NCBI GenBank assembly: GCA_019873645.1
Contig: JAIOAX010000007.1
Span: 90,944-154,943, forward strand
Reading direction: 5' to 3'
Origin: Chloroflexota bacterium
GTDB lineage: Bacteria > Chloroflexota > Anaerolineae > B4-G1 > SLSP01
DNA: 64,000 nt
Numbering within the stretch: the first letter of the stretch is position 1; every line of letters begins with the position of its first letter. Under the pieces are notes generated by a model that did no database searches, was not told where the DNA came from, and saw only the letters and a program-made list of their open reading frames with translations. Positions 11,895 through 60,103 of this stretch are shown here, piece by piece. Made by a program: the position numbers and the translations under genes.

Positions 11895-12036
11895 CTGTAT
11901 TTGAAAGTTGTTACACAACTGCCACATAACTACCACATAACCCAAATGGTAGACTGAGCATAAATCTGCTATAGTGTAGTTGGGAATAATGGTTATGAAA
12001 TTATTTGTATGCGCAGCAGGGGATGGAGGCGTAATA

Positions 12037-18000: not shown

Positions 18001-21000
18001 GCTATCGGCGATACCGTGTGGATTGATACGAATGGCAACGGCGTCCGCGATACGGGCGAATCCGGCATCGCCAACGTGAATGTGTACCTGTGTTCCGACG
18101 CGGCGTGCGCGACAAAACTGCGCACCACGTCCACTGACCTGGACGGGTTGTACTCATTTGGCGGCCTGAGCGATAACACCACGTACTATGTGATGGTGGA
18201 AACCAATCGCACGACGGACCCGGATTTCCCGGCGAACCTGACCAATACCTACGACCCCGATGGCACAAACAATGCGGTGACGCAGGTCTCCACCAGCGGC
18301 GGCAAAGTGACCACCGTGGGGACGCTGAGCGGTTGCGGTGTGACGCAAGATTGCGCGCTCAAAGCGGATTTCGGCTTCCAGTACACCGGCTCGGCCAGCA
18401 TCAGCGGCTATGTCTTCAACGATGTGGGCAACAACGGCGGAACGCCGGGCGTGGGGTACGTGCCCGGCACGGATATTCCGATTGCCGGCGTGCCGGTCTA
18501 TCTCTGGTCAACGTGCGGGCCGGATGGTGTGTGCGGCAACAGCGATGATGTGACGATGCTGGTCGCGGAAACCACCACCGCTGTCGATGGCAGCTACTCG
18601 TTCACCGGACTGCGGTCGGATACGTACCGCGTGGCGGTGGGCGCCAGCGCGCCGCAACTCAAGGAGATGACGCTCACATACGAACCGGATGTGGTGGATG
18701 GCTACTGCAACACCTCCGGCGATAACTGTAATGTCAATACCACGGTCGTCATCGGGGCGAGCGTTACGAACAAGAACTTTGGCTTCTATGCTGCCATTGA
18801 CTACGGCGACCTGTTGGATTCTTACCGCACGACCACAGCGTATGGCGGCGCGGGGCATATCATCCCGACCGGCTCCACCCTCTATCTGGGCGCCGCCCGC
18901 CAGACCGAAGCCAATGGCCGTCCCACCTTCGACGCCACGGGTGAGGGCAACGAAGAGGATGGCGTAACCTTTAAGCCCGGTCAGGTCTATCGGGGCGGCA
19001 ACACACTCACCTTCGAGGTGACCATTGCCGGCGCCAATGGCTATCTGGTCGCGTTCTTCGACTGGAATGGCGACGGCGACTTCGCCGACGCTGGCGAGAT
19101 TGTGAACTTTGCCAATCAGGCTGCCGGCACCCGCGATTACACGGTCAATGTGCCGGCGGGCGCGGATTCGGGCAGTATGCTCAACGCGCGCTTCCGGCTC
19201 TACGATAGCACGCAGGTGACTTCTTATGGCGCGGATGGGCTGGCGGTCAACGGCGAGGTGGAAGACTACCAGTGGAAGTTTGGCTCCATCGGCGACTACG
19301 TCTGGATGGACCTCGACCGCGACGGCTTCCAGGACGCGAGCGAGCCGGGGCTGCCCAACGTCAAGGTTAACCTCTACAAGAGCGACGGGACGACGCTGTT
19401 GGCGAGCACCTACACCGATAGCGCGGGACGTTACCGCTTCGAGACCCTCGGCGACGGCGATTACGTGGTGAAAGTAGATACCACCACATTGCCCAACGGT
19501 GGGACAAACATCGTCAACACCTATGACCCCGACCAGCCGGGCGGCGGCGACAGCGCCAGCGGCGTGATTGCGCTCGCGGCCGGGCAGCGGGTGGATACCG
19601 CCGACTTCGGCTACGCGCCCAGCGCGACCAAAGCCGCCATCGGCGACTATGTCTGGTCGGATGCGGATAACGACGGCATTCAGGACCCCGGCGAGCCGGG
19701 CATCGAGGGTGTCACGGTGGCGCTCAAGAATGCGGCAACCGGCGCGCTCATGGCCACGACGACCACAGACGCCGCCGGCCGCTACCTCTTCACCAATATT
19801 GACCCCGGCGAGTACATCGTGGATGTGACCGATACCGGCGGAAAACTTGCCGGCTACACGCTCAAGGTCGGCCCGCAGAGTAGCACCGACCCTACCGCGC
19901 CCATCAAGGTGCGCGCGGGCGATGTGTACCTGGAGGCAGACTTCGGTTACTACAAGAGCGGCCTGGGTTCCATCAGCAACCAGGTCTGGCTGGACTTCAA
20001 TGGCAATGGCTTGTTTGAAGGCGGCGAGACCGGTTTGAGCGGCGTGCAGGTGATGTTGATTAAGGACAGCGACGGCGACGGCGTCCGCGATGCGGGCGAA
20101 CCGGTCATCGCCACAGCGGTGACGGCGGCGGATGGCGCGTATACCTTCACCGGCTTGCCGCTGGACTACGGCAGCGGCAACGCCAAGTACCTGGTGGTCG
20201 TGGGCGATACAAACGTCGCGCTCCGCGACTACATCAAGACCACCGGCGCGAGCGCGACCGCCGATAGCTATAGCAAGAGCGAGCCTTACGCAGTCACGCT
20301 GAGCAGCGGGACGCCCACCAACGTCACCGCCGACTTCGGCTACCGCTATCCGCTCAACGTCAACGGGCTGATTGGCGACCGCGTCTGGTTCGACCTCGAC
20401 GGCGACGGCGTACAGGATGAGGGCGAAGCCGGCATCCCCGGCGTGACGGTGTACCTGTGTACGTCCAGCCCGTGCGGCAGCGGCAACGCCATCCGCACAA
20501 CCACCACCGATGTCAACGGCAATTACTACTTCCCCAGCCTGCCCGCCGGGACGTACTATGTGGCGGTGGACACCTCCACGCTCAAGGGCGGCGTCACGGT
20601 CAATACATTCGATGACGATACTGACTATGATAGCGAGAGCGGCGCTATCAACCTGGCGGCCGGGCAGACGTATGTGGGCGCGGACTTTGGGTACGATTAC
20701 GCCACGGCTGGTCACAGTATCGGTGACAAAGTCTGGCGTGACGATAATACCAACGGGCGCGATGATGAGTCCACGACCGGCATCTCCGGTGTCACGCTGG
20801 CCTTGTACAAAGATAACAACAGCGATGGTCTGTTGGATAGCGGCGATACGCTGTTGGCGACGGACACTACTGACAGCAGTGGTATCTATGGCTTCAATGG
20901 GTTGCCCGCTGGCGACTACATCGTGGATGTGACTGACGAGTACGGTGTGTTATTTGGCTATCGCCAAACGGCAGGCAACGATCCCTGGCCTGTGCTCATC

Positions 21001-23319
21001 AAAACGGCTAGCCGCAGCGACATTGACTTCGGCTACGTGCGCGAAGCCGCCCTCGGCTCCATCGGCGATACCGTCTGGTTCGACGTAGACGGCGACGGCG
21101 AGGTGGACCCCGTCGAAAAGGGCCTCCCCGGTGTCAAAGTCTGGCTGTATGTGGATATGGACAACGACGGCATCTTCGACCCCGACGACGGCGACGGCGT
21201 CTGCGAGACCGGCGAGGACTGCATCTACGACTACGATGGCGACAGTACACGCGGCGATGCTGACGACAGCGTGCTCACCGGACACGACGGCGTCTACCGG
21301 TTCGGCAATTTGCCGGCGGGCAATTACTTTGTTGTTGTAGAAGGCGATGGCAGCACCACCGGCAACTTTGCCAGCGGCAAGCCGCTGAATGGCCTGGCCT
21401 CGACAACCGGCGGGCAGGTGAGCGCGGTCATTCATCTCTCGGAAGGTGAACGCTACCTGGAGGCGGACTTCGGTTATCGCAACAGTTCAGGAACCTACTC
21501 CATCGGTGACTTTGTCTGGGCCGACGCTGACGCCGACGGTATCCAGGACCCCGGCGAGCCGGGTATCGCCGGCGTGCTAGTTGAGCTTTTCAATGCCAGC
21601 AACGTTTCGCAGGGCACGGCCACGACCGACGCCTACGGGTACTATCGCTTTACCGGCATCACTACCGCGGGGGTCTACTACGTCAGAGTGCGGGATTCTA
21701 ACTTCACTTCTGGTCAGCCTCTGGAAGGGTATACGGTCACAAGCGGGCCGGAAAGCCAGGGGAATAATCAGAGCAAGGCTTATCAGCTTAATGATACGAC
21801 GCCTTCTGTAGACAAGGTGGACTTCGGCTTTGACAACGCCAGCCTGGGCTCCATCGGCGACCGCGTCTGGCTGGACTTCAACAAGGATGGAAATCAGGAT
21901 ACCGGCGAGCCGGGGCTGAAGGGCATCTACGTGGACTTGATTTCCGGCGGCAATGTCATCGCCACCACCGTCACGGATGCCAATGGCAACTACTCGTTCA
22001 CCGGTTTGAAGTACGGCGCTTACACCGTGCGCGTCGAGGATCGGGACAATCTTCTGCAAGGCATGACGCTCACGACCGCTGGCGCCTTCGACCGCACCGT
22101 TTCTGCTGGGACGCCCAACCACACTGACGCCGACTTCGGCTTCAATGACCCCACCATCGGCGACTTCGTCTGGCTGGATGACGGCGACGGCATCCAGGAA
22201 ACCGGCGAGAGCGGCATCCAGGGCGTCAAAGTGCTGCTGTACCGTGACATTGACGGCGACGGCGTCATTGATCCTGGCGTGGACAATCTCATCATGACCC
22301 GCTACACCAACGAGGACGGTTACTACTACTTTGGCGAGCTGCCGTTCAATACGACCTACATCATCAAACTGGATGACAGCAATTTTGCATCGGGAGGCGT
22401 TCTTGAGGGCTTCAAGACGACATTGCAGAATCAAGGTGGTGATGACGCCAAGGACAGCGACGCCGCGGCTAACCTGACCTCTGGCGTCCAGATTGCAATT
22501 ACCACCCCTGGCTTGCAAACGGAGGACTTCACCCTTGACTTTGGCCTGTTGTGCACTACGTGCCGTACCATCGGCAACCTGGTTTGGCAAGACCTGGATG
22601 CGCCTGCTACATCTGGGCACGGTTACAAGGATACTGATGAAAGCGGCCTGGATGGCGTCACGCTGGTGCTCTACCGTGATTTGGATGGCGACGGCGCCAT
22701 TGACGAGGATGATCCGGTGGTGGGCAAGACAACCACGAGCGGCGGCGGTTCCTATGCCTTCTCTAACCTTCCGCCTGATACGTATATTGTTCAGGTTACG
22801 GATGAAAACTTCGTGCTCAAGGGGTTTGTCTGGTCCGATGGCACGTATAACAATGGGGATAACTACAGCCATGTAACAACCTACGCCGTGAATATCACCA
22901 GTGGAGATGTCAACTACGCGGACTTCGGCTTCTACCAATATCCAGAAGCGCCCACCGCCGTCACCCTCGCCGACTTCTCTGCGACGGCGCAGGCGGACGG
23001 TATCCTTCTCACCTGGGAGACGGCTGCCGAGCTGGACAACGTCGGCTTCAACCTCTACCGCAGCACGTCGGTGGATGGCCCCTACACGTTGCTGAACGCG
23101 ACGCTCATCCCGCCACAGTTCCCCGGCGAGGTCATCGGCGGCATCTACGCGTGGTTGGATGCCGATGTGCAGCCCGGTATCAGTTACTACTACAAACTCG
23201 AAGATGTGGATGTGAAAGGTGTCAGCACTTTCCACGGGCCGGTGACGGTCACGGCGCGCGCGACAACGGCGGCCCCAGGGTTTAAGGTGTTCTTACCACT
23301 GGTCATGGCGCAGCATTAA
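12037..23319 (+). CDS. Giant secreted SdrD_B-repeat surface protein with GEVED-like region, dockerin-like insertions and C-terminal Fn3-like module
   Basis: Signal peptide after GGAGG RBS; about 18 repeats of IGDxVWxDxxxDGxQDxGExGIxGVxVxLY...TTTDxxGxYxFxxLPxGxYxVxV; NGEVEDYQW; C-terminal LTWETAAELDNVGFNLYRS...YYYKLEDVDVKG; ends FKVFLPLVMAQH. Confidence 0.93.
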   Translation: MNRSACSRRFLSVFLALMLVVSGITTLAPATPVAAAGILTVSVRNLAGEPLNAYNLVVDSNINGMSTASPSVATVMVRFCNTGDAPLTNVTGYIGDFDTNKDGNITTDDFTVGIYPPRNTSDAGFSTQHPALMDITPTTYRFQHIGGALGTADGARYMGTLTAGECRYQYWHFTYPLCEGNLAAPCQKTNPLASATWGESVKPQDDLWLTFDTWATSDQYPLASGVPNDSWKMTMRNEISAMANKIQPNPDGIWFNTDPNTIRPGGVITTNGVLYEFGNINQGFDNDGDMIPDYNAWAQPVGNADFDPSCFRLIRTTGYLDISRSGGNPNMILPFTDKLYFTNLPPDNTGVRGYVHYTFLALGGPCNVALSPYQEVASGRDNEKFNADYGKGPDPLSTPLTEMTISKNGPASVAMNTTYTYNIPFANPGSQDIGITLSSGFGVEMPLGIVDKVPAGLRYVCGSASASFTNYSGSYRKLFSNDGVTWKESTVANNSDIFYAGSPMFPGTNCPTTNPQSTTSAPIYIRWELTAPLPKQNGATVSSGVATFQARAEAATFISGGGSPVVTNEACAKLATAGVSLACGSTTTLIQGTNSIGNFVWRDLDKDGVQDGGVEIGIPNINVKLYWDQNGNGAFDATDVFLFQTSTDSNGLYCLGAGADNTCNTADDTLPDAKYVVVIDSNDTDLPAGYVLTTRKVIPIDLDSAQTNPSRVYNDTADFGFGPVLTLDKALTSSNPAYVGENVQFKLDLVNTLPGTSGGYCQYRAWAGEVSAGTPATDSPPWVAPNNAVGSYDEAYATLTLGTNTDKLGLSRFNTGSTTGGNISKVELWIYFREMAEFQDASQDDRVFVQPYYGNAVLGTSVQLDFNYFNQTAPANYLYKLDVTSRRSWTLADFAPGTALTELEISGTKGNASIKGTIGVDAAMYVITTDRTDCGQEGVIATLPVTDTYDADLLEFVAADPPASAVVVKGTAPNSTGTITWTNVGPLYPGEANSILVTFKALATIASPGTTNYAAVRNAKFDTGRPVNQVEDSAQAYIQTPSSIAGTIWADTDEDGWTGTSPNMTSKESGEAGIPNVEVELWACVNNTTGLPMTVAQAASNKPCEDIANNGTWTLMTVTRTNTLGNYKFSGLRDGFYNIKVDTSTLPAGFTLQTGEANNYTGGASGINSGFDTYWSSPTANLSDSNFNPLSAENVTRIDFGFTNPAGTNGGVFGYIWNDADNGGYNDWDATETPIPGVDVYLCLSSATPPCTSSNAVATATTNEFGFYSFNRAAGNYIIGVDSNDLPGMTQSASPDDTVGTCDPSNCNGQKTTFAIPDDNLAGAYNFGYTGGLKIGDTVYVDWNSDGSQNATTEEGIGGVTVYLYRDIDGDGVLDAGEPLLATTATLYNIIDGYLDVNNDGSITSADDGMIQGYTIIDGAVDTDRNGTIGAGDTGTLGGYTVINGRLDVNGGGVDTTDDASKLGWYEFTKLAGNNNKYIVVVNETTIPSGYVQTGDPDESGMCVTCDAMDPLTLGTSDYLAADFGYRPTGTASIGDRVWKDNDADGVQDTYEVGIGGVAVYLYQDQDSDGVLDPEDAVVIETTTTINYQVVDGCIDIDGDGVFCSDTGDAAMAGTGLMGVKVYGGRLDMDGDGRVAYKVIDGAIDINGDGTITTADDFPSLYGKRIIDGRVDFNNDGLVTTADDTGVGQDYLGYRVIDGYLDIDNDNATAPDTGDDSDWAVPDEGDDGTYFGYAVIDGKLDMNGSGTVTTADDSSALIGMYQFTRLPAGSFIVKVENSNFDQVGDPLYALQQTNIQTPPGIENQHKVTLTTGQAYTAADFGYTNGAIGDLIWQDNNGNGSWDTGEPGISGVRVWLYIDQNNNGIYDAGTDTPYDYDGNGTAGNLGDSVTTDSSGIYRFIGLPASATDKPYLVVIDPAMFTSGQPLDSTKFTLTYDPDGPTWDTSITPRPTYPPCGTGVGYDKCNNVSQVPLLLGQMDYGQDFGYQPLLAIGDTVWIDTNGNGVRDTGESGIANVNVYLCSDAACATKLRTTSTDLDGLYSFGGLSDNTTYYVMVETNRTTDPDFPANLTNTYDPDGTNNAVTQVSTSGGKVTTVGTLSGCGVTQDCALKADFGFQYTGSASISGYVFNDVGNNGGTPGVGYVPGTDIPIAGVPVYLWSTCGPDGVCGNSDDVTMLVAETTTAVDGSYSFTGLRSDTYRVAVGASAPQLKEMTLTYEPDVVDGYCNTSGDNCNVNTTVVIGASVTNKNFGFYAAIDYGDLLDSYRTTTAYGGAGHIIPTGSTLYLGAARQTEANGRPTFDATGEGNEEDGVTFKPGQVYRGGNTLTFEVTIAGANGYLVAFFDWNGDGDFADAGEIVNFANQAAGTRDYTVNVPAGADSGSMLNARFRLYDSTQVTSYGADGLAVNGEVEDYQWKFGSIGDYVWMDLDRDGFQDASEPGLPNVKVNLYKSDGTTLLASTYTDSAGRYRFETLGDGDYVVKVDTTTLPNGGTNIVNTYDPDQPGGGDSASGVIALAAGQRVDTADFGYAPSATKAAIGDYVWSDADNDGIQDPGEPGIEGVTVALKNAATGALMATTTTDAAGRYLFTNIDPGEYIVDVTDTGGKLAGYTLKVGPQSSTDPTAPIKVRAGDVYLEADFGYYKSGLGSISNQVWLDFNGNGLFEGGETGLSGVQVMLIKDSDGDGVRDAGEPVIATAVTAADGAYTFTGLPLDYGSGNAKYLVVVGDTNVALRDYIKTTGASATADSYSKSEPYAVTLSSGTPTNVTADFGYRYPLNVNGLIGDRVWFDLDGDGVQDEGEAGIPGVTVYLCTSSPCGSGNAIRTTTTDVNGNYYFPSLPAGTYYVAVDTSTLKGGVTVNTFDDDTDYDSESGAINLAAGQTYVGADFGYDYATAGHSIGDKVWRDDNTNGRDDESTTGISGVTLALYKDNNSDGLLDSGDTLLATDTTDSSGIYGFNGLPAGDYIVDVTDEYGVLFGYRQTAGNDPWPVLIKTASRSDIDFGYVREAALGSIGDTVWFDVDGDGEVDPVEKGLPGVKVWLYVDMDNDGIFDPDDGDGVCETGEDCIYDYDGDSTRGDADDSVLTGHDGVYRFGNLPAGNYFVVVEGDGSTTGNFASGKPLNGLASTTGGQVSAVIHLSEGERYLEADFGYRNSSGTYSIGDFVWADADADGIQDPGEPGIAGVLVELFNASNVSQGTATTDAYGYYRFTGITTAGVYYVRVRDSNFTSGQPLEGYTVTSGPESQGNNQSKAYQLNDTTPSVDKVDFGFDNASLGSIGDRVWLDFNKDGNQDTGEPGLKGIYVDLISGGNVIATTVTDANGNYSFTGLKYGAYTVRVEDRDNLLQGMTLTTAGAFDRTVSAGTPNHTDADFGFNDPTIGDFVWLDDGDGIQETGESGIQGVKVLLYRDIDGDGVIDPGVDNLIMTRYTNEDGYYYFGELPFNTTYIIKLDDSNFASGGVLEGFKTTLQNQGGDDAKDSDAAANLTSGVQIAITTPGLQTEDFTLDFGLLCTTCRTIGNLVWQDLDAPATSGHGYKDTDESGLDGVTLVLYRDLDGDGAIDEDDPVVGKTTTSGGGSYAFSNLPPDTYIVQVTDENFVLKGFVWSDGTYNNGDNYSHVTTYAVNITSGDVNYADFGFYQYPEAPTAVTLADFSATAQADGILLTWETAAELDNVGFNLYRSTSVDGPYTLLNATLIPPQFPGEVIGGIYAWLDADVQPGISYYYKLEDVDVKGVSTFHGPVTVTARATTAAPGFKVFLPLVMAQH
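16198..16431 (+). repeat. Three tandem 26-residue dockerin-like repeats inside the surface protein
   Basis: YNIIDGYLDVNNDGSITSADDGMIQG / YTIIDGAVDTDRNGTIGAGDTGTLGG / YTVINGRLDVNGGGVDTTDDASKLGW, each 78 nt. Confidence 0.85.
16798..17322 (+). repeat. Second block of about six VIDG/dockerin-like repeats inside the surface protein
   Basis: YQVVDGCIDIDGDG..., VYGGRLDMDGDGRVA, YKVIDGAIDINGDGTITTADD, KRIIDGRVDFNNDGLVTTADD, YRVIDGYLDIDNDN..., YAVIDGKLDMNGSGTVTTADD. Confidence 0.85.
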
Positions 23320-40350: not shown

Positions 40351-41604
40351 GTGACGGAACCGATCATCGTTTTTGACCACGTTTCTAAGACCTTCAATCT
40401 GCATAGCAACCGTTCACGTTCGTTTCAAGAAGCACTGATCAACTTGGGACGGCGGCAGCCGCGCGTCCATGATGATTTGCATGCCCTGCGCGATGTCAGC
40501 TTTACCGTTGAGCGTGGGACAACGGTGGGCTTCATCGGTCCAAACGGCGCCGGCAAGAGCACCCTGCTCAAACTCATCGCGCGCATCCTTGAACCTGACG
40601 CCGGTAAAATCACGGTGCTCGGCCGGGTGGGAGCGCTGTTGGAACTCGGCGCGGGTTTCCACCCGGAACTGAGCGGGCGCGAGAACATTTACCTGAACGC
40701 TTCGATTATGGGCTTAAGCCGCCACGAAGTGGACCGGCGCTTCGATGAAATTGTGGCTTTTTCGGAACTGGGACGTTTCATTGATGTGCCGGTGAAACAC
40801 TATTCTTCGGGGATGTATGTACGACTCGGCTTTGCCGTTGCAGTTAATATCGCCCCGGAGATTTTGCTGGTAGATGAAGTCCTGGCGGTGGGGGATGCCG
40901 CGTTTCAGCACAAGTGCACCGACCGCATCGCACAAATGCGGCGCGAAGGCGTGACCATCGTGTGGGTCTCGCACGACCTGGGAACTGTCCAAACCTTGTG
41001 CCATCAAGCGATCTGGTTCAACGAGGGGCGCGTCGCAGCGCACGGCGAAGCTACCGATGTGGTGATGGCCTATCTGTCGCATGTGGCCGAACAAGAGGAG
41101 GCGCGTGCGCATCTTGAGTCGGCATCGCAGGCAGAACAGGCAAAGCAGACGGAACAGGCGGTCCGAAATCGTTGGGGCACGGGGAAGGTCCGCATCACCG
41201 ATGTCAAGCTGTGCGATGGGCAAGGTAATCCGGCGGTCACATTCAGGACCGGGGAGCCGCTGCATATCCATCTGCGTTATCAGGTCGAAGAGCGGGTGGC
41301 CGAACCGGTGTTCGGTCTGGCGATCCATCATCAGAGCGGGACGCACATTTGCGGGCCGAACACCCACTTCGGCGGGTTGGAGATCACAGAAATTAGTGGC
41401 ACAGGCGAGGTCGTCTATACGGTTCCGGCTTTGCCCCTGTTGGAAGGTGCTTATACGGTCTCAGTATCGGCCCACAATCGGATGGACACGGAGATGTTTG
41501 ACTATCACGACCGTCTGTACCCTTTCCGCGTCTATCCGGGCAAGTCGCCGGAACGCTATGGCTTGATGACTTTGAATGGGTATTGGCGGTTGAATGAAGA
41601 CTGA
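40351..41604 (+). CDS. ABC transporter ATP-binding protein, polysaccharide export type (Wzt/TagH-like) with C-terminal Wzt domain
   Basis: Walker A GPNGAGKST; HPELSGRENIYLNASIMGLSR; signature HYSSGMYVRLGFAVA; LLVDEVLAVGD; C-terminal GNPAVTFRTGEPLHIHLRYQV...LEGAYTVSVSAHNRM...YDHDRLYPFRV-type Wzt_C region. Confidence 0.93.
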   Translation: MTEPIIVFDHVSKTFNLHSNRSRSFQEALINLGRRQPRVHDDLHALRDVSFTVERGTTVGFIGPNGAGKSTLLKLIARILEPDAGKITVLGRVGALLELGAGFHPELSGRENIYLNASIMGLSRHEVDRRFDEIVAFSELGRFIDVPVKHYSSGMYVRLGFAVAVNIAPEILLVDEVLAVGDAAFQHKCTDRIAQMRREGVTIVWVSHDLGTVQTLCHQAIWFNEGRVAAHGEATDVVMAYLSHVAEQEEARAHLESASQAEQAKQTEQAVRNRWGTGKVRITDVKLCDGQGNPAVTFRTGEPLHIHLRYQVEERVAEPVFGLAIHHQSGTHICGPNTHFGGLEITEISGTGEVVYTVPALPLLEGAYTVSVSAHNRMDTEMFDYHDRLYPFRVYPGKSPERYGLMTLNGYWRLNED

Positions 41605-43936
41605 CAGGCACATCTTAGTCATCAGTCATGACGTCGTCGGTGCTCACATGGCCGGGCCGGGAATCCGCTATTGTGAACTGGCGCGCGTGTTGGCACAGCA
41701 CTTCCGCGTGACTCTGGCCGCCCCCGTTGTGAAAGATGTGACTATAGCGGATGTTGAACTGTGGCCCTACCAGCCTGGCGTATGGGATTCGCTTGCGCCG
41801 GTAGTTTCACGGGCAACAACCCTGGTGCTCTGTGGCGACGTGCTGGCATGGTTTCCGCAGTTCATGCAAGGTGAGACGCCGTTGGTGATAGACGGCTATG
41901 ATCCCCATCCGCTAGAGACATTGGCACTGTTTGCCGGGATGCCGGAGCAAGCGCAGCGGCACCAAGAGCGTGAGCGGATCTTGCAAATGCAATGCCGGGC
42001 CGGTGACTTTTTCATCTGCGCCGGTGAGCGGCAGCGAGATTGGTGGTTGGGATTATTGGAGGCGACGGGACGACTCAATGCCCAGGTCTATAACGCCGAT
42101 CCCTCGCTGCGGCAATTGATTGATGTGGTTCCTTTTGGATTACCTGCTTCACCTCCGCAACATACCAGGACGGTGCTCAAAGGTGTCTGGCCGGGCATTG
42201 CTCCAGATGACAAGGTCATCCTGTGGGGTGGGGGACTGTGGCAGTGGCTTGATCCTCTCACGGCGATCCGGGCAATGGCACGCTTGCGAGAGCAACGCAA
42301 TGATGTGCGGCTGATTTTCCCCGGCACGCGCCACCCCAATACTGCGATCCCCGATATGCCTGTAGTGCGTCAGGCTCGAGAACTTGCCGCAGATTTAGGG
42401 CTTTTGGACAGCCACGTTTTCTTCGGCGATTGGGTGCCTTATGCCGAGTGGCCCAATTACCTGCTGGAAGCGGATGCGGGGGTGTCGCTGCATTTTGATA
42501 CTGTGGAGACACGCCTGGCCTTTCGCAGTCGGGTGTTGGACTACATCTGGGCCGGGCTACCGATGGTGCTCACGGGCGGTGATGCAACCGCCGATTTGGT
42601 GCAGCAGCATGGACTGGGGCAGTTGGTGGATGTTGAGGATGTGGACGGTGTTGTACAAGCGTTGCTTGACATCCTGGCGCAACCGTGCGTGGCCTGGGAA
42701 GTACACTTTGCCACGACGCGGGCGCAGTTGACCTGGGAGCGGGCGGCGGAACCGTTGGTGCGGTTTTGTCAACACCCGCGCCGGATCGCAGATTGTTCTA
42801 CCATGGTGTTCGGCGAGCCAACAGCGACACCGGCGATTCCGGCGGCCGTGCAAACGCGGCTGGAGCAGCAGGAACAGGAAATTGCACGTTTGCGCGCTTT
42901 GGTGGACGGCTATGAGCGCGGGCGATTCATCCGGTTGATGTCTTATTTGCATGGTCTATGGCAGCAATCAATAGGGCGTTTGCTGGTTCAATGGCGAAGG
43001 CGACGGTGGGTTAAGCATTTTCATCAGGCGTTGTGTCATGAACTGGGTACGGTTAGTGATCATGCATTTGTAGATCGTGCTTATTGGCGGATCCTGCGAC
43101 GTGCGCCGGATGCAGCGGGATTTAAACATTATACGGATTTATTAGCCCGTCATCAACTGTCGCGGCGTCAAGTAGTGGCATCTCTTGTGCAATCGGCAGA
43201 ATTCCATGAGGCATTACGGCGAATGTACGGCATTGTTGAACAATTGCATCTCGTGCGTTGCCAGATGATTAAACAATTGCCTCCAGCACAGGATGTGCTG
43301 GATTTAGGAGGAGCAGCTCCGAATTCGATTCAAGGTGCATTATTGGTAATGGGTTATCCTCATCCCCTAAAAACTCTGACCATTGTAGACTTGCCACCGA
43401 TAGATCGGCTTGGGACGTATATATATGGGTCGGATGAGCGACCGGGGGAATGGATAGCGACGGAGGTGGGGCAAATTCGTTATCTTCATACCCGGATGAC
43501 GGATTTGAGAGCTATCCTCTCTTGCAGCATGGATTTGGTTTTCTCTGGTCAAAGCATTGAGCATATCAGCGTATTGGACGCAAAACAAGTGATGCATGAA
43601 GTGTACCGCATCTTACGTCCTGGCGGGCATTTTTGCCTAGATACGCCGAATCGTGCCTTGACCTCAATTCAATCCCCGGACCAATTGATCCATCCTGAAC
43701 ATCAGGTTGAATATCATGTTTCTGAACTTGTGGCTCTGCTGCGAGAGACGGGATTTATTATAGAAAAAGTTAAAGGCATCTGTCCGATGCCGAATACGGT
43801 ACGCACCGGCGTGTTTGATGCGAATGAGATCTTTGCCCACGCTTACCTTTCTGATGAAGCGGAGCAAAGTTATTTATTCTATGTCCAATGTGTAAAACCT
43901 GATGATAGAGAAGATGATAGAGAAAGTGTAAATTGA
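41594..43936 (+). CDS. Tripartite protein: N-terminal GT4-like glycosyltransferase, DUF4214-like segment, C-terminal SAM methyltransferase
   Basis: GT4-like LRE...IFPGTRHPNTAIPDMPVVRQARELAADLGLLDSHVFFGDWVPYAEWPNYLLEADAGVSLH; AFVDRAYWRILRRAPDAAGFKHYTDLLARHQLSRRQVVASLVQSAEFHE; MDLVFSGQSIEHISVLDAKQVMHEVYRILRPGGHFCLDTPN. Confidence 0.82.
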   Translation: MKTDRHILVISHDVVGAHMAGPGIRYCELARVLAQHFRVTLAAPVVKDVTIADVELWPYQPGVWDSLAPVVSRATTLVLCGDVLAWFPQFMQGETPLVIDGYDPHPLETLALFAGMPEQAQRHQERERILQMQCRAGDFFICAGERQRDWWLGLLEATGRLNAQVYNADPSLRQLIDVVPFGLPASPPQHTRTVLKGVWPGIAPDDKVILWGGGLWQWLDPLTAIRAMARLREQRNDVRLIFPGTRHPNTAIPDMPVVRQARELAADLGLLDSHVFFGDWVPYAEWPNYLLEADAGVSLHFDTVETRLAFRSRVLDYIWAGLPMVLTGGDATADLVQQHGLGQLVDVEDVDGVVQALLDILAQPCVAWEVHFATTRAQLTWERAAEPLVRFCQHPRRIADCSTMVFGEPTATPAIPAAVQTRLEQQEQEIARLRALVDGYERGRFIRLMSYLHGLWQQSIGRLLVQWRRRRWVKHFHQALCHELGTVSDHAFVDRAYWRILRRAPDAAGFKHYTDLLARHQLSRRQVVASLVQSAEFHEALRRMYGIVEQLHLVRCQMIKQLPPAQDVLDLGGAAPNSIQGALLVMGYPHPLKTLTIVDLPPIDRLGTYIYGSDERPGEWIATEVGQIRYLHTRMTDLRAILSCSMDLVFSGQSIEHISVLDAKQVMHEVYRILRPGGHFCLDTPNRALTSIQSPDQLIHPEHQVEYHVSELVALLRETGFIIEKVKGICPMPNTVRTGVFDANEIFAHAYLSDEAEQSYLFYVQCVKPDDREDDRESVN

Positions 43937-45309
43937 TGATGAAAGCCTCAATCATCATTTTATCCTGGAATGGAATGTCGTATCTGGGCCCATGTCTCGA
44001 TGCTGTGCTGGCCCAGGACTATCCGGATTTTGAAGTCATCGTTGTAGACAACGGCTCCGCCGATGGCTCGGCGGATTTTGTGGCAACGCGCTATCCACAG
44101 GTGCGCCTGATCCGTAATGCGCGCAACCTGGGCTTTGCCGCCGGGAGCAACATTGGCTTGCGCGCGGCAGCCGGTGAGGTGTTGGTGCTGCTGAATCAGG
44201 ATACGGAAGTGTGCCCGGGATGGCTGGCGGCGCTGGTGACAGCGCTTCAGGATCCTACGATAGGGATTGTGGGCTGTAAACTGCTTTATCCTAACGGGAC
44301 AATCCAGCACGCAGGCGGACGTATTGTAGATAGCCGCGGGTCGGCGCGACATATCGGGCGCGATGAGATAGACGAAGGCCAATATGACGCGATTCAGGAT
44401 GTGGATTTTGTGACGGGGGCTGCGTTGGCCTTAACACGCACGACGTTCGCTTGCATCGGCCCTTTAGATGAGGGATTTATGCCGGCGTATTATGAAGATA
44501 CCGACTGGTGTTACCGAACACGTGAAGCCGGATTGCGTGTCATTTACTGCCCTTCCGCCATGGCGATTCATTATGAATCTGCTTCTTCGGTTACCAGCAG
44601 TTATACACATCAGGTCAACTTTCATAGTGGACGATTGCGGTTTTTATTCAAACATCTAAAGTTGGAAGATTTGTGGGCCTCCTTTGTACCGGCAGAATCT
44701 GAGGGGATACAAAATCTGGGTCCGGGTGGTGAGTTGGAAGCCTTGCGGCAAGCCTGGATGAACCTGTTGTTGTCACTGCCGGATATTCTCGAATTCCGTT
44801 TGCGCTTCATTGAACCGGATATGGACCCACAAATGATGGGCGAATCGCTGTTTCAAATTGCAATGACATTACGTGGACTATGTGCTAAGGAGCAGCCTTT
44901 TTACATACCTCGCGAGCCTTCAGTCGCTGCACAGCCCGAGATCTGGAACTCACAATTGGCCTCTTTGTACCATGAAGGAGAGATTACGCCACAACCTTTT
45001 CGTTCAAGTGTCCCCGTTATAGGACCAGCCATTGTTGCATTTCGTGAGACATGGCTCAGCATGGCGGCGCGATGGTACATACAGCCCTTGATTATGCAGC
45101 AGCGGGTATTTAATGCCCATACGGTGCAGTTGTTGAATCAAATCACCGACAATCTAAATCAAATCGCCGACAATCTAAATCAAATCGCCGACAATAGTGT
45201 ACGTAGTCAGCAGGAAAATGCTCAACATGTGCGAGAGCTGAATACTTTGCTATCTGAACTTCTTCACTTACAGAAGCGGGTCGCCGAACTGGAAGGGCGA
45301 TTATTATAA
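43933..45309 (+). CDS. Glycosyltransferase family 2 with C-terminal GPxIxxFR motif and coiled coil
   Basis: ASIIILSWNGMSYLGPCLDAVLAQDYPDFEVIVVDNGSADGSADFV...VLVLLNQDTEV...GFMPAYYEDTDWCYRTREAGLRVIY. Confidence 0.92.
   Translation: MMMKASIIILSWNGMSYLGPCLDAVLAQDYPDFEVIVVDNGSADGSADFVATRYPQVRLIRNARNLGFAAGSNIGLRAAAGEVLVLLNQDTEVCPGWLAALVTALQDPTIGIVGCKLLYPNGTIQHAGGRIVDSRGSARHIGRDEIDEGQYDAIQDVDFVTGAALALTRTTFACIGPLDEGFMPAYYEDTDWCYRTREAGLRVIYCPSAMAIHYESASSVTSSYTHQVNFHSGRLRFLFKHLKLEDLWASFVPAESEGIQNLGPGGELEALRQAWMNLLLSLPDILEFRLRFIEPDMDPQMMGESLFQIAMTLRGLCAKEQPFYIPREPSVAAQPEIWNSQLASLYHEGEITPQPFRSSVPVIGPAIVAFRETWLSMAARWYIQPLIMQQRVFNAHTVQLLNQITDNLNQIADNLNQIADNSVRSQQENAQHVRELNTLLSELLHLQKRVAELEGRLL
45136..45198 (+). 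repeat. Three tandem 21-bp in-frame repeats encoding one heptad each
   Basis: aatcaaatcaccgacaatcta / aatcaaatcgccgacaatcta / aatcaaatcgccgacaatagt; peptide (L)NQITDNLNQIADNLNQIADNS. Confidence 0.92.
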
Positions 45310-47877: not shown

Positions 47878-49062
47878 ATGAAACTTGCTATTGTAGTGCC
47901 CCGTTATGGCCCGAACATTGTCGGCGGTGCGGAGAGCTTTGCCCGGCAGTTGGCCGAACACTTGCCTGCTCCTGAATTTGATGTGCAGGTGCTGACCACT
48001 TGCACTGACGATTTGAGTACTGGCGAGAACGTTTATCCACCAGGATGCACACGCTTAAATGGGGTATGGGTCCGGCGTTTCCCGATTGATACTCGATTTC
48101 GAGATACAGCGCGTTTTCATGCTCTTAACCGTAAACTGGCGATGGAAGCCTCGCTTAGTGTAGATGAGCAATATGCCTGGATTGACAATAACATCCACAG
48201 TCCTGCACTTTACGCCTATCTCATACAGTATGGAGAAATGTTTGATCTACTCTTGTTTATTCCTTATCTGTATGGTATAACATTTTACGGCAGCATTTTG
48301 CATCCTCATAAAACTGTGCTCTGGCCTTGCCTGCACAATGAACCTTTCGCCTATTTCCTCGAAACTCGCTTAATGTTGACTTCTTGTCGTGGTGTGATGT
48401 TTAACAGCCAGCCAGAACTTATGCTGGCCAGTGAGCGTTTGTGTTTGAAACTACCACGCCCGGCCATTGTCGGTGGGGGGATAGAAATACGGCCGGCCGA
48501 TGGACAGCGTTTTCGGAGAAAATGGGGCTTGACTGCCCCTTTTTTACTCTATGCCGGTCGGATCACTGCGGCTAAGAATGTAGAAGAGCTGATGAATTTT
48601 TTTATATACTACAAACAACAATATCCTGGACCGCTGAAATTGGTCTTTATGGGTGAAGGCGAACTATCGTTACCCGCGCACCCCGATTTGTTAAGGATCG
48701 GCTTTCAGCGTGAAGAGGACAAACTTGATGTGTATGCGGCTGCAACGGCTCTGGTGCAACCTTCATTGATGGAAAGCTTCTCTATTGTTATGATGGAATC
48801 GTGGTCTACCGGCGTCCCGGTGTTAGTGCATGGCGATTGTGACGTCACACGTTATCATGTTATGCGTAGCAATGGCGGGTTGTACTATACTAATTTTGTA
48901 GAGTTCGCGGGTGCGCTTGATTGGTTGCTGGCGCACCCTGCTGAACGCGCGCGCATGGGGGCGCTGGGCCGCGCTTATGTGCAGCGTGAGTATAGTTGGG
49001 AGACGGTGATGGGCCGCTTCCGTGAAGCAACGGCGCTTTGGTATGATGTAAGCCCGACTTAA
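47878..49062 (+). CDS. Glycosyltransferase family 4
   Basis: LAIVVPRYGPNIVGGAESFARQLAEHLP; PFLLYAGRITAAKNVEELMNFF; ALVQPSLMESFSIVMMESWSTGVPVLVHGDCDVTRYH. Confidence 0.9.
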   Translation: MKLAIVVPRYGPNIVGGAESFARQLAEHLPAPEFDVQVLTTCTDDLSTGENVYPPGCTRLNGVWVRRFPIDTRFRDTARFHALNRKLAMEASLSVDEQYAWIDNNIHSPALYAYLIQYGEMFDLLLFIPYLYGITFYGSILHPHKTVLWPCLHNEPFAYFLETRLMLTSCRGVMFNSQPELMLASERLCLKLPRPAIVGGGIEIRPADGQRFRRKWGLTAPFLLYAGRITAAKNVEELMNFFIYYKQQYPGPLKLVFMGEGELSLPAHPDLLRIGFQREEDKLDVYAAATALVQPSLMESFSIVMMESWSTGVPVLVHGDCDVTRYHVMRSNGGLYYTNFVEFAGALDWLLAHPAERARMGALGRAYVQREYSWETVMGRFREATALWYDVSPT

Positions 49063-49098: not shown

Positions 49099-50109
49099 AT
49101 GAGTAAGAGAATTTGGCAAGTGCGTAAATGGTTGATAGACAAGTTCATTCAAATCATAGGGCGGTGGGAAACCCCGGTGGCCAACCCCGCAGATATTTAT
49201 TACAGCTACAAACTTATTTTGGGACGTGATCCTGATGATGAAGGGTGGTAGCAATGGTTAACTTATGCTGAGGCTGGTATGACACGCAATGAACTGGCTA
49301 CCACCTTTCTCAATTGTCCAGAATTCCGTAACCGACAACGTACAGCGCAGAATGTACGGGTTGAGCTAGACGATTTTGTGATGTACGTAGACTCTACTGA
49401 CGCCGATATTGGTCAGGTTATTATCCGTGAGAAAGATTATGAACCTCATGTCACAACTACCCTTTGCCGGCAATTCAAAGCAGAACATACTTTTCTGGAT
49501 ATTGGCGCCAATATGGGCTGGTTCACATTATTGGCCGCTACACGTTTAACTCGTGGAAAAGTGATTGCTGTAGAACCAAACTATCGCAATCTTCAACTGT
49601 TGTACCAGAGTGCATTGGTCAATGGGTTAAGTAACATTACTTTCCTCCCTTATGCAGCCTCGGATGGTTTTAGAATTCTACAGCTCATCTCTGGCGTTTC
49701 CAATGGCCGTGTTATGACAATCGAGAATGTCCATGAGGTATGTGAATATGTGCCGGCTGTGCCGTTAGGAGTATTATTGCGGGATGAACCGCGGCTGGAT
49801 ATTGTTAAAATAGATATTGAAGGTTATGAAGGGATAGCCCTGATGGGAATGTGCGATCTGATAGCTAAACATCGTCCAATCATAGTATCGGAGTTTCATC
49901 CCCAAATGATGCGTCTCTCCAATCTCGATCCAGAGACTTACTTGCGCCAGTTAGTGGCCTGGGGCTATCATCTGGCTGTGATTGAATCGGATGGCACAGA
50001 GTTACCGGCGAGTGACCCAAAAGAAATTCTAAAGTATTGGGAAGATATGAATCGCCGATTTAACCTGACCGGAGAAGGGCATCTGGATATTCTGGCCAGG
50101 CCAATCTAG
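49099..50109 (+). pseudogene. DUF4214-like plus FkbM-type methyltransferase gene interrupted by an in-frame TAG at 49249-49251
   Basis: ATG 49099: MSKRIWQVRKWLIDKFIQIIGRWETPVANPADIYYSYKLILGRDPDDEGW*QWLTYAEAGMTRNELATTFLNCPEFRNRQR, same frame as the 49279 ORF. Confidence 0.8.
49279..50109 (+). CDS. FkbM-family methyltransferase (downstream open part of the interrupted gene)
   Basis: FLDIGANMGWFTLLAATRLTRGKVIAVEPNYRNLQLLYQSALVNGLSNITFLPYAA...LDIVKIDIEGYEGIALMGM. Confidence 0.85.
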   Translation: MTRNELATTFLNCPEFRNRQRTAQNVRVELDDFVMYVDSTDADIGQVIIREKDYEPHVTTTLCRQFKAEHTFLDIGANMGWFTLLAATRLTRGKVIAVEPNYRNLQLLYQSALVNGLSNITFLPYAASDGFRILQLISGVSNGRVMTIENVHEVCEYVPAVPLGVLLRDEPRLDIVKIDIEGYEGIALMGMCDLIAKHRPIIVSEFHPQMMRLSNLDPETYLRQLVAWGYHLAVIESDGTELPASDPKEILKYWEDMNRRFNLTGEGHLDILARPI

Positions 50110-51206: not shown

Positions 51207-51239
51207 TAAATATTAAGGATTCCTTGCAGGCTGGTGTTT

Positions 51240-51707
51240 ATGAGTAATCAAGATGACCTGTGTGATGTCATTGAAGTCCGCACTCCTGATATTGATGCGG
51301 AGGCCATTATGCGCCAGATACGCACCGCTATCCAGGAGCGCCGTGTAGCCTCTGGACTAGAAACGGCAGAGTTTGATGTTTTAGCAAAGGGAGTGCTTGT
51401 ACAACCAACCCTGGCTGACCTGCGCCGTGATTTGGAACGCTTAGCCGAGACCATGCGACATGGTGATATAGAGATGTTCCTCAGCGATGTGCGTCCTTCG
51501 CCTGTCAGGGGTTTGATTCAACGTTTCCGTGCCATTGTGCATAAGGCGATCTTGTTCTACGTCAATCGCCTGGCTGCGCGCCAGGCAATGACCGATCGTC
51601 AGGTACTTTCGACACTCAGGACGGCTTTTCACTTAATTGCAGCCCAGCAGGCGCGCATTGAGGCATTGGAGCGTGCATCTAAGGCAGCAGATGAGACAAC
51701 CGGGTAA
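51240..51707 (+). CDS. Uncharacterised protein carrying one copy of the locus motif plus C-terminal coiled coil
   Basis: SPVRGLIQRFRAIVHKAILFYVNRLAARQAMTDRQVL; flanked by GT4 genes. Confidence 0.75.
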   Translation: MSNQDDLCDVIEVRTPDIDAEAIMRQIRTAIQERRVASGLETAEFDVLAKGVLVQPTLADLRRDLERLAETMRHGDIEMFLSDVRPSPVRGLIQRFRAIVHKAILFYVNRLAARQAMTDRQVLSTLRTAFHLIAAQQARIEALERASKAADETTG

Positions 51708-51732: not shown

Positions 51733-52893
51733 ATGCTAAACCTCTGGACCCCCTCAGAACAAGCCTATATCGCCCGCCTCTACGCCCTGGCGGATGTGAC
51801 CGACCGGGCGTACGCGGTGCGCTCCATGATCCCATTGCTTGGTCCCCTGGTCGTCTGGCTGCGACGTAACCTGACTACCCATCTGCGTGAAGCCTATTTT
51901 GACCCTATCGTAGAACGGCAAGTTCTGTTCAACCGCAAGCTGGCCGATGCGTTGTGCGCCGCCTGGCAATTTCTCAAGGAACGGGCAGTTGATGAAGGGA
52001 ATCATTTCGTTGCTCCTGAAGTACAACGCAGTGCGGCGGCGCGTGAGCTGCTGGAACAGGCGACCATGGCTGCCGCAGCGATGACGGTGTTCAATGCCCT
52101 GTTGTGGGCCGGGCCTTTGCCGGAGTATGGTGAATGTCTGGGAAAGGCGTTTTATCAAGCTTTGTATGCTGCCAGTCTGGCAAGTATGTCTCCGGTGAGT
52201 GAGACTCAAAAAAAGGCGAACCTGCAATTGTTGGAAAACATCCGGCAGTTGGCTCAAAAGATAGAGGCCCGGCCACGCTGGATGGCAAAATTCTACACCG
52301 AATCTCTCGTCCCCGATGTGATGCTCCGGGATTATCGGGTCCATTCATCCAAGCGGTTTATCGGCCCATTGATTGGCTGGTTGCGTTGTCGCCTGACTGC
52401 ACATTTGAAGGAAGCCTACCTTGACCCGACTTTGGAGCGCCAGGTTACATTCAATCGGCGGTTTCAAGCTGCATTGCACGATGCGACCGCACTTGAACGG
52501 GCCTCTGTGACCCGGTTGCGAGTTGCCGCCGACACGGTGGTTTGCCCCTATCGTGTATGTTCTTCGGTTCCCTTGCTCGGTCTGCTCATCGTCTGGCTGC
52601 GCCGTTGGTTGACCGCGCATATAGATGTACCTTACATAATCCCTATCCTTGAACGGCAGGCTGCGTTTAACCGCACCGCCGTCGAAGTCCTGGCGTTGAT
52701 TCAGCAACAGGCGGCCGACTTGCGCGGCTGCGAATCCGCTGTCGGTTCTTTGTTTGAACTGGCGTATGATCTGGCAGAATTGCAGGCGCGGGTAGAGTCG
52801 CTGACTCAAACGGCAGATGCGCAAGAGGAATTCAACACGTTGGTTGGGGAGCTGGTTTCCCGGATGCAAACCTGGATTGCGGAGGTCGGGTGA
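51733..52893 (+). CDS. Uncharacterised protein with three copies of the 44-residue motif
   Basis: Copies at nt 51811-51942, 52333-52464 and 52549-52680, each 44 codons; open frame overlapping the next GT4 start. Confidence 0.8.
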   Translation: MLNLWTPSEQAYIARLYALADVTDRAYAVRSMIPLLGPLVVWLRRNLTTHLREAYFDPIVERQVLFNRKLADALCAAWQFLKERAVDEGNHFVAPEVQRSAAARELLEQATMAAAAMTVFNALLWAGPLPEYGECLGKAFYQALYAASLASMSPVSETQKKANLQLLENIRQLAQKIEARPRWMAKFYTESLVPDVMLRDYRVHSSKRFIGPLIGWLRCRLTAHLKEAYLDPTLERQVTFNRRFQAALHDATALERASVTRLRVAADTVVCPYRVCSSVPLLGLLIVWLRRWLTAHIDVPYIIPILERQAAFNRTAVEVLALIQQQAADLRGCESAVGSLFELAYDLAELQARVESLTQTADAQEEFNTLVGELVSRMQTWIAEVG

Positions 52894-54764: not shown

Positions 54765-54786
54765 TGAAATGTCAAGGAGGTTCCTT

Positions 54787-57030
54787 ATGACAACTTACCT
54801 GTATGCTAGTTATCGCCGTAAAATCTTGATAGTTGTGTTGATCTTCATGGTGTTGATAAGTTGGATTGAACCATCTGGAGTCATAGCTCAACCAACTGCG
54901 GGGATAATCCGCGTGGCGCCGACCGGTACCGATACGTCCGGCTGTGGTTCTGAGAGCACACCATGCCGGACGATCCAGTATGCGGTCAATGCTGCCGCCT
55001 CCGGCGATACGATCAAGATTGCGCAGGGCACATATACCGGTTCCGGAGGGGCAGTGGTCAGCATTAAGAAAAGCCTTACGCTTATCGGTGGGTATACTAC
55101 CTCGAATTGGGACACCCCCTCGACCGATCCGGCGTTGACGATCATTGATGGCGAGCATGTTCGACGTGGCGTCGAAATCAGCGATGTGGTCGGCAATGTC
55201 AGTATTGCGTTTCAGGGCCTGACGATCCGCAATGGCTTTAACGACAAGACGCTGGCAGGCGGAGAATTTATCGGCGGGGGAATGTTGTGCCGGAGCGGCG
55301 ATGCAGGTAAGACGGTTACCCTGTCTCTCACGTCGGTGAAGTTTGAAAATAATCAGGTACAGGGGACGACCAATGGCCCGGCAGGCGGCGGCGGGGCCGG
55401 TTTTTACGAGAAATGCCCGGTCACGATGCAGCAAGTGACCTTTAGCGGCAATCAGGTGATCGCCGGGGATGCTACCAATAATACACGCGGCGGACAGGCC
55501 TTGGGCGGCGGCTTTTTTGCTACCAACGGAAGCCACATTACGGCCAACACGATTGTCCTGGTCAATAACACGGCTCGAGCCGGTTCTGGGGGGCAAGGTT
55601 ACCTGAACGATACATGGAATCGCGCCGATGCTCTGGGTGGTGGCGCGGCAATGCAGTATAACAATGTCAACATTGTGGGAATTACGGCGACAAATAATCA
55701 AGCCGTCGCAGGCAGTGGCTCTGCGTATGGCGGTTTTGCCTGTGGGGGGGCGCTTTTCTTTGAGCACAACACCGGCACGGTCGCTATCAGCGACGGCGTA
55801 TTGAGCGGCAACCAGGTGACCGGCGGTGCATCTACTTCTGAAGGCGGCGCCAGCTCCGGCGGCGCGATCATGTCGACAGATAGCGTGTTGTCTTTGGAAC
55901 GTTTAACCATCGTCAACAATTCCAGCATCGGCGGCGCCGGCAGTGACGGCGGCGATGCTGGCGGCGGTGCGCTCTATTTCACCCGTGCTGTGAGTCCCTG
56001 GGGCGCCCCCAGTACTGTGACCGGCGTCAACCTCATCATCGCCGATAATGTAGCCGAGGCCGGCGCCGGCGCGAATCGCTGGGGCGGCGGCGGCGGCATC
56101 TTCAGCCAGAATACCGATTTGACGCTGTATCACGCGACGTTTTCTGGCAACCGGGTGTTGGATTCGATGCAGGCGCCGGCCCTGATCGCGCTCAATTATG
56201 CCGGCACAGATATAGGCTGGAGTACAGCACGTTTGTATTACTCTATTATTGCCAATCACACGCCAGCTTCTTTCAGTTATGCTGCGATGGCGCTCAGCTC
56301 CGGGGATACGTTGCAGATGAACTATACGCTGTTCTATAACAACGGTGGGCGCAATTACGGCGGCAGCGGCTCCATCTCCAATAATAACGAAGTCCCAAGC
56401 GGCAATCCGGCGTTTGTCAGCCCGGGCGCGCCTAATTATAACTATCACATCACCTACAGTTCCGCGGCCCGTGATCGAGCCATTGGCAGCAGCACAACAC
56501 TCGATATTGACAAGGATGCTCGCCCCATCGGCGCTGCTTCGGACGTCGGTGCCGACGAGTACGTTTTACACAATGCGCACCTTGTGGTATCGGCATTTAA
56601 TACGCCGACCAATATCGTCGCTGGTGGCAGCACCTCGCATACGGTGGTGCATCGGATCGTCGTGCAGAATACCGGCGATATTGCGGCTACGACGGCTACC
56701 TTGACCGAGCAATTGTCCACGCCTTCCGCGCCGCTCTCGATGAATGTTTCATCTGGGCCGACATGTACCAGCGGAACCTGCAATTACAATGCCACTACGC
56801 GCCGAATAACCTGGTCAGGCAGTGTGCCCAGCGGCGGCTCCGTGACCATCACTTACGACCTGCTGGTCAATGTCCCCACCGACTACACGGCCTCCACCGC
56901 GATTCCCTCCACCCTCAATTACAGTTTTGCGGACAATGAAGGTGGCTCTGGGAACGGTACACTGGTATCTTCAGTTTTTATCAATGCCAGGCAGGTATAT
57001 TTGCCGCTTGTTGCCAGGCTCAATGAATGA
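54787..57030 (+). CDS. Secreted right-handed beta-helix (Pmp-like) surface protein with C-terminal DUF11-like domain
   Basis: AAGGAGG RBS; signal peptide; CRTIQYAVNAAASGDTIKIAQGTYTG; repeated GG...GGAL/SGNQV; ends RQVYLPLVARLNE. Confidence 0.88.
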   Translation: MTTYLYASYRRKILIVVLIFMVLISWIEPSGVIAQPTAGIIRVAPTGTDTSGCGSESTPCRTIQYAVNAAASGDTIKIAQGTYTGSGGAVVSIKKSLTLIGGYTTSNWDTPSTDPALTIIDGEHVRRGVEISDVVGNVSIAFQGLTIRNGFNDKTLAGGEFIGGGMLCRSGDAGKTVTLSLTSVKFENNQVQGTTNGPAGGGGAGFYEKCPVTMQQVTFSGNQVIAGDATNNTRGGQALGGGFFATNGSHITANTIVLVNNTARAGSGGQGYLNDTWNRADALGGGAAMQYNNVNIVGITATNNQAVAGSGSAYGGFACGGALFFEHNTGTVAISDGVLSGNQVTGGASTSEGGASSGGAIMSTDSVLSLERLTIVNNSSIGGAGSDGGDAGGGALYFTRAVSPWGAPSTVTGVNLIIADNVAEAGAGANRWGGGGGIFSQNTDLTLYHATFSGNRVLDSMQAPALIALNYAGTDIGWSTARLYYSIIANHTPASFSYAAMALSSGDTLQMNYTLFYNNGGRNYGGSGSISNNNEVPSGNPAFVSPGAPNYNYHITYSSAARDRAIGSSTTLDIDKDARPIGAASDVGADEYVLHNAHLVVSAFNTPTNIVAGGSTSHTVVHRIVVQNTGDIAATTATLTEQLSTPSAPLSMNVSSGPTCTSGTCNYNATTRRITWSGSVPSGGSVTITYDLLVNVPTDYTASTAIPSTLNYSFADNEGGSGNGTLVSSVFINARQVYLPLVARLNE

Positions 57031-59413: not shown

Positions 59414-60103
59414 GTGACCCATAAAACGATTCAACCTGATGAGGTATTGCGCAGTATCGAGTTTGAGCTTTTGCAGGGAACGATCTCGCATGATGACCTC
59501 GGCGCCGGCATTCATACGGCGCGGCAATATCAGAACAAGGTGCGCAGCGAACTGATGGGCGCTTCTAAGGACGCGCCTGATATTCGGGAGACGGCAATCC
59601 GGCTTTTCCAGATTAACGAAATGCTGCTCACATTGATTCAGGAGTTAAACGCTGCTTTGCTGGGCGTCCAGGCCGATCTGCACCGGATGCGGCAGACCGC
59701 CGAAGTGACCGCGCAGATGAATGTATCGCCGGTGACTCTTGTACCGGAACCGGCGACGGTGGCATCGGCAGAATCTACTCCAACCCCGCTGCCTGCCGAT
59801 GTACGCCGCGCCATGCGTTCTGAGGCGTTACAGATCGAAATGGATGTTCAGCCTGTGACCATCCCGCTGATCGGCGGTTTGCTGCGACGGCTCAGGTTCA
59901 TGGTGCACGACCTGGTGTTGTTTTACCTGCGCCGCCTGGCCGGCAAACAGGCTGCGGTGAACCAGACCTATGGCGAATGGGTGTTGCATCTTGTCGAAAA
60001 ATCCGAGCGGCAGCAGATTCAGATTGAGATATTGGCGGCGCGGCTGGCTGCTCTGGAGGCCCGTCTGGCCGAATCGGGGCAGGCGGCTGCGGCGCAAGCC
60101 TGA
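59414..60103 (+). CDS. Uncharacterised protein with one copy of the locus motif, flanked by coiled coils
   Basis: TIPLIGGLLRRLRFMVHDLVLFYLRRLAGKQAAVNQTY near the C-terminus; GTG start. Confidence 0.75.
   Translation: MTHKTIQPDEVLRSIEFELLQGTISHDDLGAGIHTARQYQNKVRSELMGASKDAPDIRETAIRLFQINEMLLTLIQELNAALLGVQADLHRMRQTAEVTAQMNVSPVTLVPEPATVASAESTPTPLPADVRRAMRSEALQIEMDVQPVTIPLIGGLLRRLRFMVHDLVLFYLRRLAGKQAAVNQTYGEWVLHLVEKSERQQIQIEILAARLAALEARLAESGQAAAAQA

Follow-up and report, generated by a model that had tools for sequence, protein, structure and literature searches.

What can a protein do that carries one motif three times, has no recognizable enzyme domain and is encoded among glycosyltransferase (GT) genes? 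The reading frame in question lies in the window, the 64,000-nucleotide stretch of a Chloroflexota contig analysed here, and its product is referred to as P0001. The frame and its repeat copies are located as follows.

51733-52893, + strand: headless triple-module protein P0001, 386 aa, ATG to TGA
51778-51972, + strand: module copy 1 (HLREPY type), P0001 residues 16-80, HMM domain score 104.6
52300-52494, + strand: module copy 2, P0001 residues 190-254, HMM domain score 102.9
52516-52710, + strand: module copy 3, P0001 residues 262-326, followed by a coiled-coil-like tail, HMM domain score 97.4

A preliminary description of this DNA had reported a triplicated 44-residue motif, and the triplication is real. 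The 44-residue copies are in register at residues 27-70, 201-244 and 273-316, and share 25/44 (copies 1 and 2, the same figure as counted by hand in that description), 25/44 (1 and 3) and 24/44 (2 and 3) identical residues. Their BLOSUM62 scores are 133, 122 and 105, respectively, whereas the top ungapped 44-residue self-match among 500 shuffled versions of P0001 scored 42 (mean 21.6, s.d. 5.3), placing the triplication far above chance expectation. The unit itself had been drawn too short: a profile HMM built from the copies defines a conserved module of ~60 residues and recovers it from many proteins besides P0001. The resulting HLREPY-type profile, Y.V.S..P..G.LI.W.RR.LT.HL.E.Y.DP..ERQ..FN (51-sequence alignment), fits P0001 as three domains of 97-105 bits. 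No variation is seen among the 51 modules at Y, S, R, T, H, Y, Q and N, and the most conserved positions are polar.

The early label of P0001 as uncharacterised stands: searches of Pfam, NCBIfam, PHROGs and PDB gave no convincing match, neither Pfam nor NCBIfam places a domain in P0001, and we found no existing Pfam family for the motif. A GT4 test for a GT-B catalytic domain in P0001 was negative. Among the 51 module members, named Pfam, NCBIfam or PHROGs domains gave scattered weak matches only (1-5 of 51 members, mainly coiled-coil-like); DAAF9_N, Csm1_N and other weak Pfam matches were rejected as sub-cut-off or sporadic. PDB sequence and fold searches returned nothing meaningful, with the fold search giving unspecific long-helix matches at E ≥ 0.38, and we found no description of the motif in open-licence papers. 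The module is undescribed; new here are the module, the range of enzymes that carry it and the headless triple form, and what is already known is the general principle that non-catalytic tails gather glycan enzymes.

When 85,462 species genomes were scanned with an alignment-based pattern, 39 module loci came up; a single-sequence scan of genome contigs gave no matches. Every one of the 39 records that names a group is assigned to Chloroflexota or to a subgroup of it; two, L089 among them, are titled only 'bacterium'. Single-module relatives occur in 27/298 genomes of the class (E ≤ 1e-5) and 14/400 of the phylum (E ≤ 1e-8), so that about 10% or less of the Chloroflexota genomes sampled have one. 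The triple form occurs at three loci: the window, L077 (incomplete, as its contig stops where the third copy starts) and L089 (CAIQQO010000470.1), which appears from its sequence to belong to the window's own class, its 774-aa frame being the same as in genome G714. Searches at three taxonomic levels, covering 48 genomes from the order, 396 from the class and 400 from the phylum, brought up no further triple forms. The triple form is thus rare and not a general requirement.

In the window, P0001 is part of a glycan cluster that includes the following genes.

40351-41604, + strand: ABC exporter ATPase with Wzt C-terminal glycan-binding domain (PF00005 and PF14524)
41594-43936, + strand: GT4, DUF4214 and methyltransferase protein, with a homologous methyltransferase region in the L086 fusion
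43933-45309, + strand: GT2 carrying a divergent module copy (C-terminal, WY type)
47878-49062, + strand: GT4_394, module-less, with homologues (37-43% identity) carrying the module in cis at 13 other loci
49279-50109, + strand: FkbM methyltransferase (domain match), with a module-bearing FkbM-like protein in L052
50133-51206, + strand: GT4a, module-less (PF00534/PF13692), with homologues adjoining headless module proteins in L052, L057, L058 and L066
52890-53963, + strand: GT4b, module-less, its start overlapping the P0001 stop, and the best window match of many GT4-module fusions

P0001 had been placed between two paralogous GT4 genes; these are indeed paralogues (40% identity), but a 157-aa ORF separates the first of them from P0001. 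The cluster resembles ABC-dependent glycan assembly in having an exporter ATPase whose C-terminal domain is of the Wzt type. No ABC2_membrane gene for a linked Wzm permease was found on the window's contig; matches were confined to other contigs.

The window also encodes large, apparently secreted proteins. A 3779-aa repeat-rich one (11980-23319) lies upstream of the glycan cluster, and a beta-helix-type one (54769-57030) lies near P0001. A homologue of the latter (37% identity) lies directly downstream of the triple-module protein in L089 (2385-3830), and a secreted protein near that of L077 (1-1674) has a short weak match to it (E = 0.01) and the same YLPLV ending; no match was found in the remaining loci of the 39. 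Both window proteins, and others in L057, L061, L077 and L084, have [YF]LPL[VA] at the extreme C-terminus, possibly a sorting or anchoring signal.

Several lines of evidence associate the module with glycosyltransferases. Among 59 module-bearing ORFs scanned, 41 have a GT4 domain, three a GT2 domain and five a methyltransferase domain. The module is usually the C-terminal tail of a GT4 and sometimes sits on GT2 or FkbM/other methyltransferase proteins, with a flexible linker before it and a coiled coil after it, and its setting is Chloroflexota surface-polysaccharide clusters. A GT4-module fusion is also present in Candidatus Viridilinea mediisalina (L088), which is cultivable. In L089, a 765-aa GT4 has a C-terminal half that aligns to all of P0001 (29% over 384 aa). 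The 13 loci in which GT4_394 homologues have the module in cis are mostly from Chloroflexales, and several of them encode double GT4s in which a GT4b-like enzyme is followed by a GT4_394-like enzyme and the module comes last; L086 combines GT4s, the module and a methyltransferase region resembling that of 41594-43936. GT4b-like enzymes carry the module in further loci. Separate module proteins occur in a recurrent order in L057, L058 and L066, where a GT4 is followed by a 246-278 aa module protein, a 162-169 aa WY-type protein and a GT4a homologue; in L052, a single 442-aa ORF combines both module proteins. These fusions and this synteny support an association of module proteins with GTs, and they strengthen the earlier suggestion that P0001 may scaffold glycosyltransferases, which can now draw on module-GT4 fusions in dozens of relatives and on one GT4 with the whole triple region. 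A headless module ORF was found at none of the 13 fused loci as opposed to 11/26 others (Fisher p = 0.007, uncorrected for phylogeny), a contrast that is confounded by lineage (fused loci being mainly from Chloroflexales), by truncated contigs and by the counting of partial or degenerate-GT ORFs as headless. The pattern is suggestive of a module supplied either in cis or in trans.

By visual reading, the module proteins at L057 7518-8255, L058 5562-6311 and L066 1500-2333 keep a seemingly degenerate GT-B N-terminal half and lack the donor-binding half, and they are possibly pseudoenzymes. This, together with the intact fusion in L089, raises the question of whether P0001 is itself a relic, a tailed GT4 that lost its catalytic part and whose tail has little function. 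Comparison with the L077 ortholog (50% identity), from the Anaerolineae MAG SKW140, which shares its order with the window genome and belongs to a different family, makes this improbable. Differences between the two genes are concentrated at the third codon position (0.40/0.29/0.65 at positions 1/2/3), a pattern of purifying selection, and the antisense frames of the ortholog carry stops; on this comparison the P0001 frame is truly coding and constrained at the protein level. The long open frames on the minus strand opposite P0001 (51754-52344 and 52345-52869) are probably not genes, because their counterparts in the ortholog are interrupted. The copies have also been kept distinct and in order: P0001 copies 1 and 2 are each nearest to the corresponding ortholog copy (67% and 59%, respectively), with cross-copy values of 41-52%, which indicates that the triplication predates the split of P0001 and its L077 ortholog.

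A more divergent set of modules follows the WY-type profile, S..P..G.LI...R..W......WY..P..QQ..FN. Profile-profile comparison of the WY and HLREPY types gives a probability of 98.9 and E = 1.6e-17, and a WY-type profile (A10) recovers the three P0001 copies at 7e-11 to 2e-5; on this profile evidence the two types are homologous at the superfamily level. One divergent copy and two probable distant ones lie in the same cluster.

44959-45153, + strand: divergent WY-type module copy at the C-terminus of the GT2 43933-45309 (profile match, profile-profile link)
51504-51668, + strand: weak, probable distant module copy in the 157-aa ORF 51234-51707 (E = 0.005 at Z = 1000, in-register alignment)
59858-60016, + strand: weak, probable distant module copy in the 229-aa ORF 59414-60103 (E = 0.004 at Z = 1000, in-register alignment)

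The motif had been taken as a feature of P0001, where it is certainly present, but it is a mobile module that is found also in the GT2 of the cluster. Elsewhere in the window genome it was not detected, being confined to the glycan cluster. Plasmid tblastn searches, run with P0001 and with two segments of the WY type, were empty, as was a scan of viral contigs. Sequences similar to the WY type may also occur in phyla other than Chloroflexota.

In an AlphaFold2 model of P0001 (24 sequences; pLDDT 71.8, pTM 0.64), each copy consists of a short extended segment and then one long helix (residues 37-92, 212-249 and 281-329). In a model of a GT4-module fusion (pLDDT 85.5), the GT4 is predicted with confidence and is joined by a low-confidence linker of ~35 residues to a short helix, after which comes a helix of 49 residues predicted to form a coiled coil; confidence in the module is low to moderate in both models. 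The preliminary description had proposed a membrane-associated or helical-bundle module. The helical half of that proposal agrees with the monomer model. The membrane half fares less well, as the amphipathic periodicity of helix A is no greater than in shuffles (p = 0.64 for the profile; for single sequences, a median p of 0.135) and the most conserved positions are polar.

The module might still be chiefly a peripheral membrane anchor, a hydrophobic-then-cationic helix that brings GTs to lipid-linked substrate on the inner membrane, with three copies adding avidity. The pattern P..G.LIAW.RRNL and a mean net helix charge of +2.8 are in keeping with such an anchor, GTs of ABC-dependent pathways work at the membrane, and WbdD has a helix of this kind. 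Interfacial free-energy sums near zero and the strict conservation of polar residues speak against it, as does the shuffle-like periodicity of helix A, and we regard it as rather unlikely. The region after the conserved Q, by comparison, has a heptad-like hydrophobic periodicity of 3.5 residues (p = 0.018); this periodicity, together with a helix A no more amphipathic than shuffles, speaks for a tail that docks or oligomerises rather than for a simple amphipathic anchor in the membrane. The invariant polar residues fit a specific interface. They could instead bind a ligand such as a lipid-pyrophosphate carrier, making the module a substrate-holding element, but the models show no enclosed fold and no ligand-binding relative is known, and we consider this highly improbable.

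The most reasonable explanation, to which we assign a probability of roughly 0.5, is that the repeat is a non-catalytic docking or oligomerisation module and that P0001 is a trivalent scaffold for the GTs of the cluster. It builds on homology, fusions, gene neighbourhood, conservation and the modelled helical form. The module would comprise a short helix, then the extended segment Y.V.S.P, then a long helix (G.LIaW.RRNLTSHLREPYlDP..ERQ..FN) that continues as a coiled coil. It would normally form the C-terminus of glycosyltransferases and methyltransferases encoded in the same surface-glycan cluster, letting these enzymes come together at the cytoplasmic membrane. P0001, three tails with no enzyme, would supply in trans what its relatives supply in cis, and would gather, from its own operon, the GT4s that lack a module and the GT2 that has one beside the Wzt-type exporter. 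From this we infer self- or cross-association of the modules, their partners, a membrane location and an effect on the glycan.

The closest parallel that we consider is the C-terminal region of WbdD (E. coli O9a/Klebsiella O3), which combines a coiled coil with a membrane helix and a site that recruits the polymerase WbdA (PMC11231755, PMC3482155). It too is a non-catalytic helical/coiled-coil tail encoded in an ABC-transporter-dependent cluster, and it gathers a polymerising glycosyltransferase at the membrane (PMC11231755, PMC3482155), as P0001 may do. As regards the coiled coil and amphipathic helix of WbdD, the P0001 module shows heptad-like periodicity and an amphipathicity that is not significant. 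How modules are divided between fused and separate proteins differs among systems. The parallel is one of analogy and not homology, as no Pfam, PDB or sequence relationship between WbdD and the P0001 module was detected. A WbdD-type N-terminal methyltransferase and/or kinase domain is absent from P0001 (Pfam, NCBIfam), and the Chloroflexota tail, unlike that of WbdD, is found in duplicate on numerous GTs and also exists in a headless triple form. P0001 may therefore be compared to a trivalent, enzyme-free form of the WbdD tail.

Other systems share part of this design. In the Klebsiella O4/O7 terminator proteins, glycan-assembly enzymes are likewise divided among proteins with one or several modules, arranged around a coiled coil (PMC11231755), but these proteins have catalytic terminator modules and P0001 has none. 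The GT4s of Chloroflexota (PF00534/PF13692) are the usual module carriers, that of L089 with the full triple region, whereas P0001 has no glycosyltransferase domain. As ABC-dependent glycan assembly is typified by coiled-coil rulers and the cluster holds a Wzt_C exporter ATPase and methyltransferases, the tandem helices could be a chain-length ruler that parts polymerising from terminating enzymes, as in WbdD. That P0001 has no fused catalytic terminator, and that most relatives have one short module on their GT4s, makes a ruler improbable.

If the scaffold reading is correct, the module may be part of an exchangeable tail code in Chloroflexota, in which each enzyme has one docking helix and headless multi-tail proteins set membership and ratio; we put this forward tentatively. 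P0001-like proteins would then determine which surface-glycan enzymes join, and in what ratio. How separate glycosyltransferases are organised into one assembly line is known for few systems only. The presence of the module on GT4, GT2 and methyltransferase proteins and in headless forms could serve as a sequence marker from which to predict the enzymes that act together in Chloroflexota, a phylum whose surface-polymer synthesis is little studied and for which the module offers a direct binding hypothesis.
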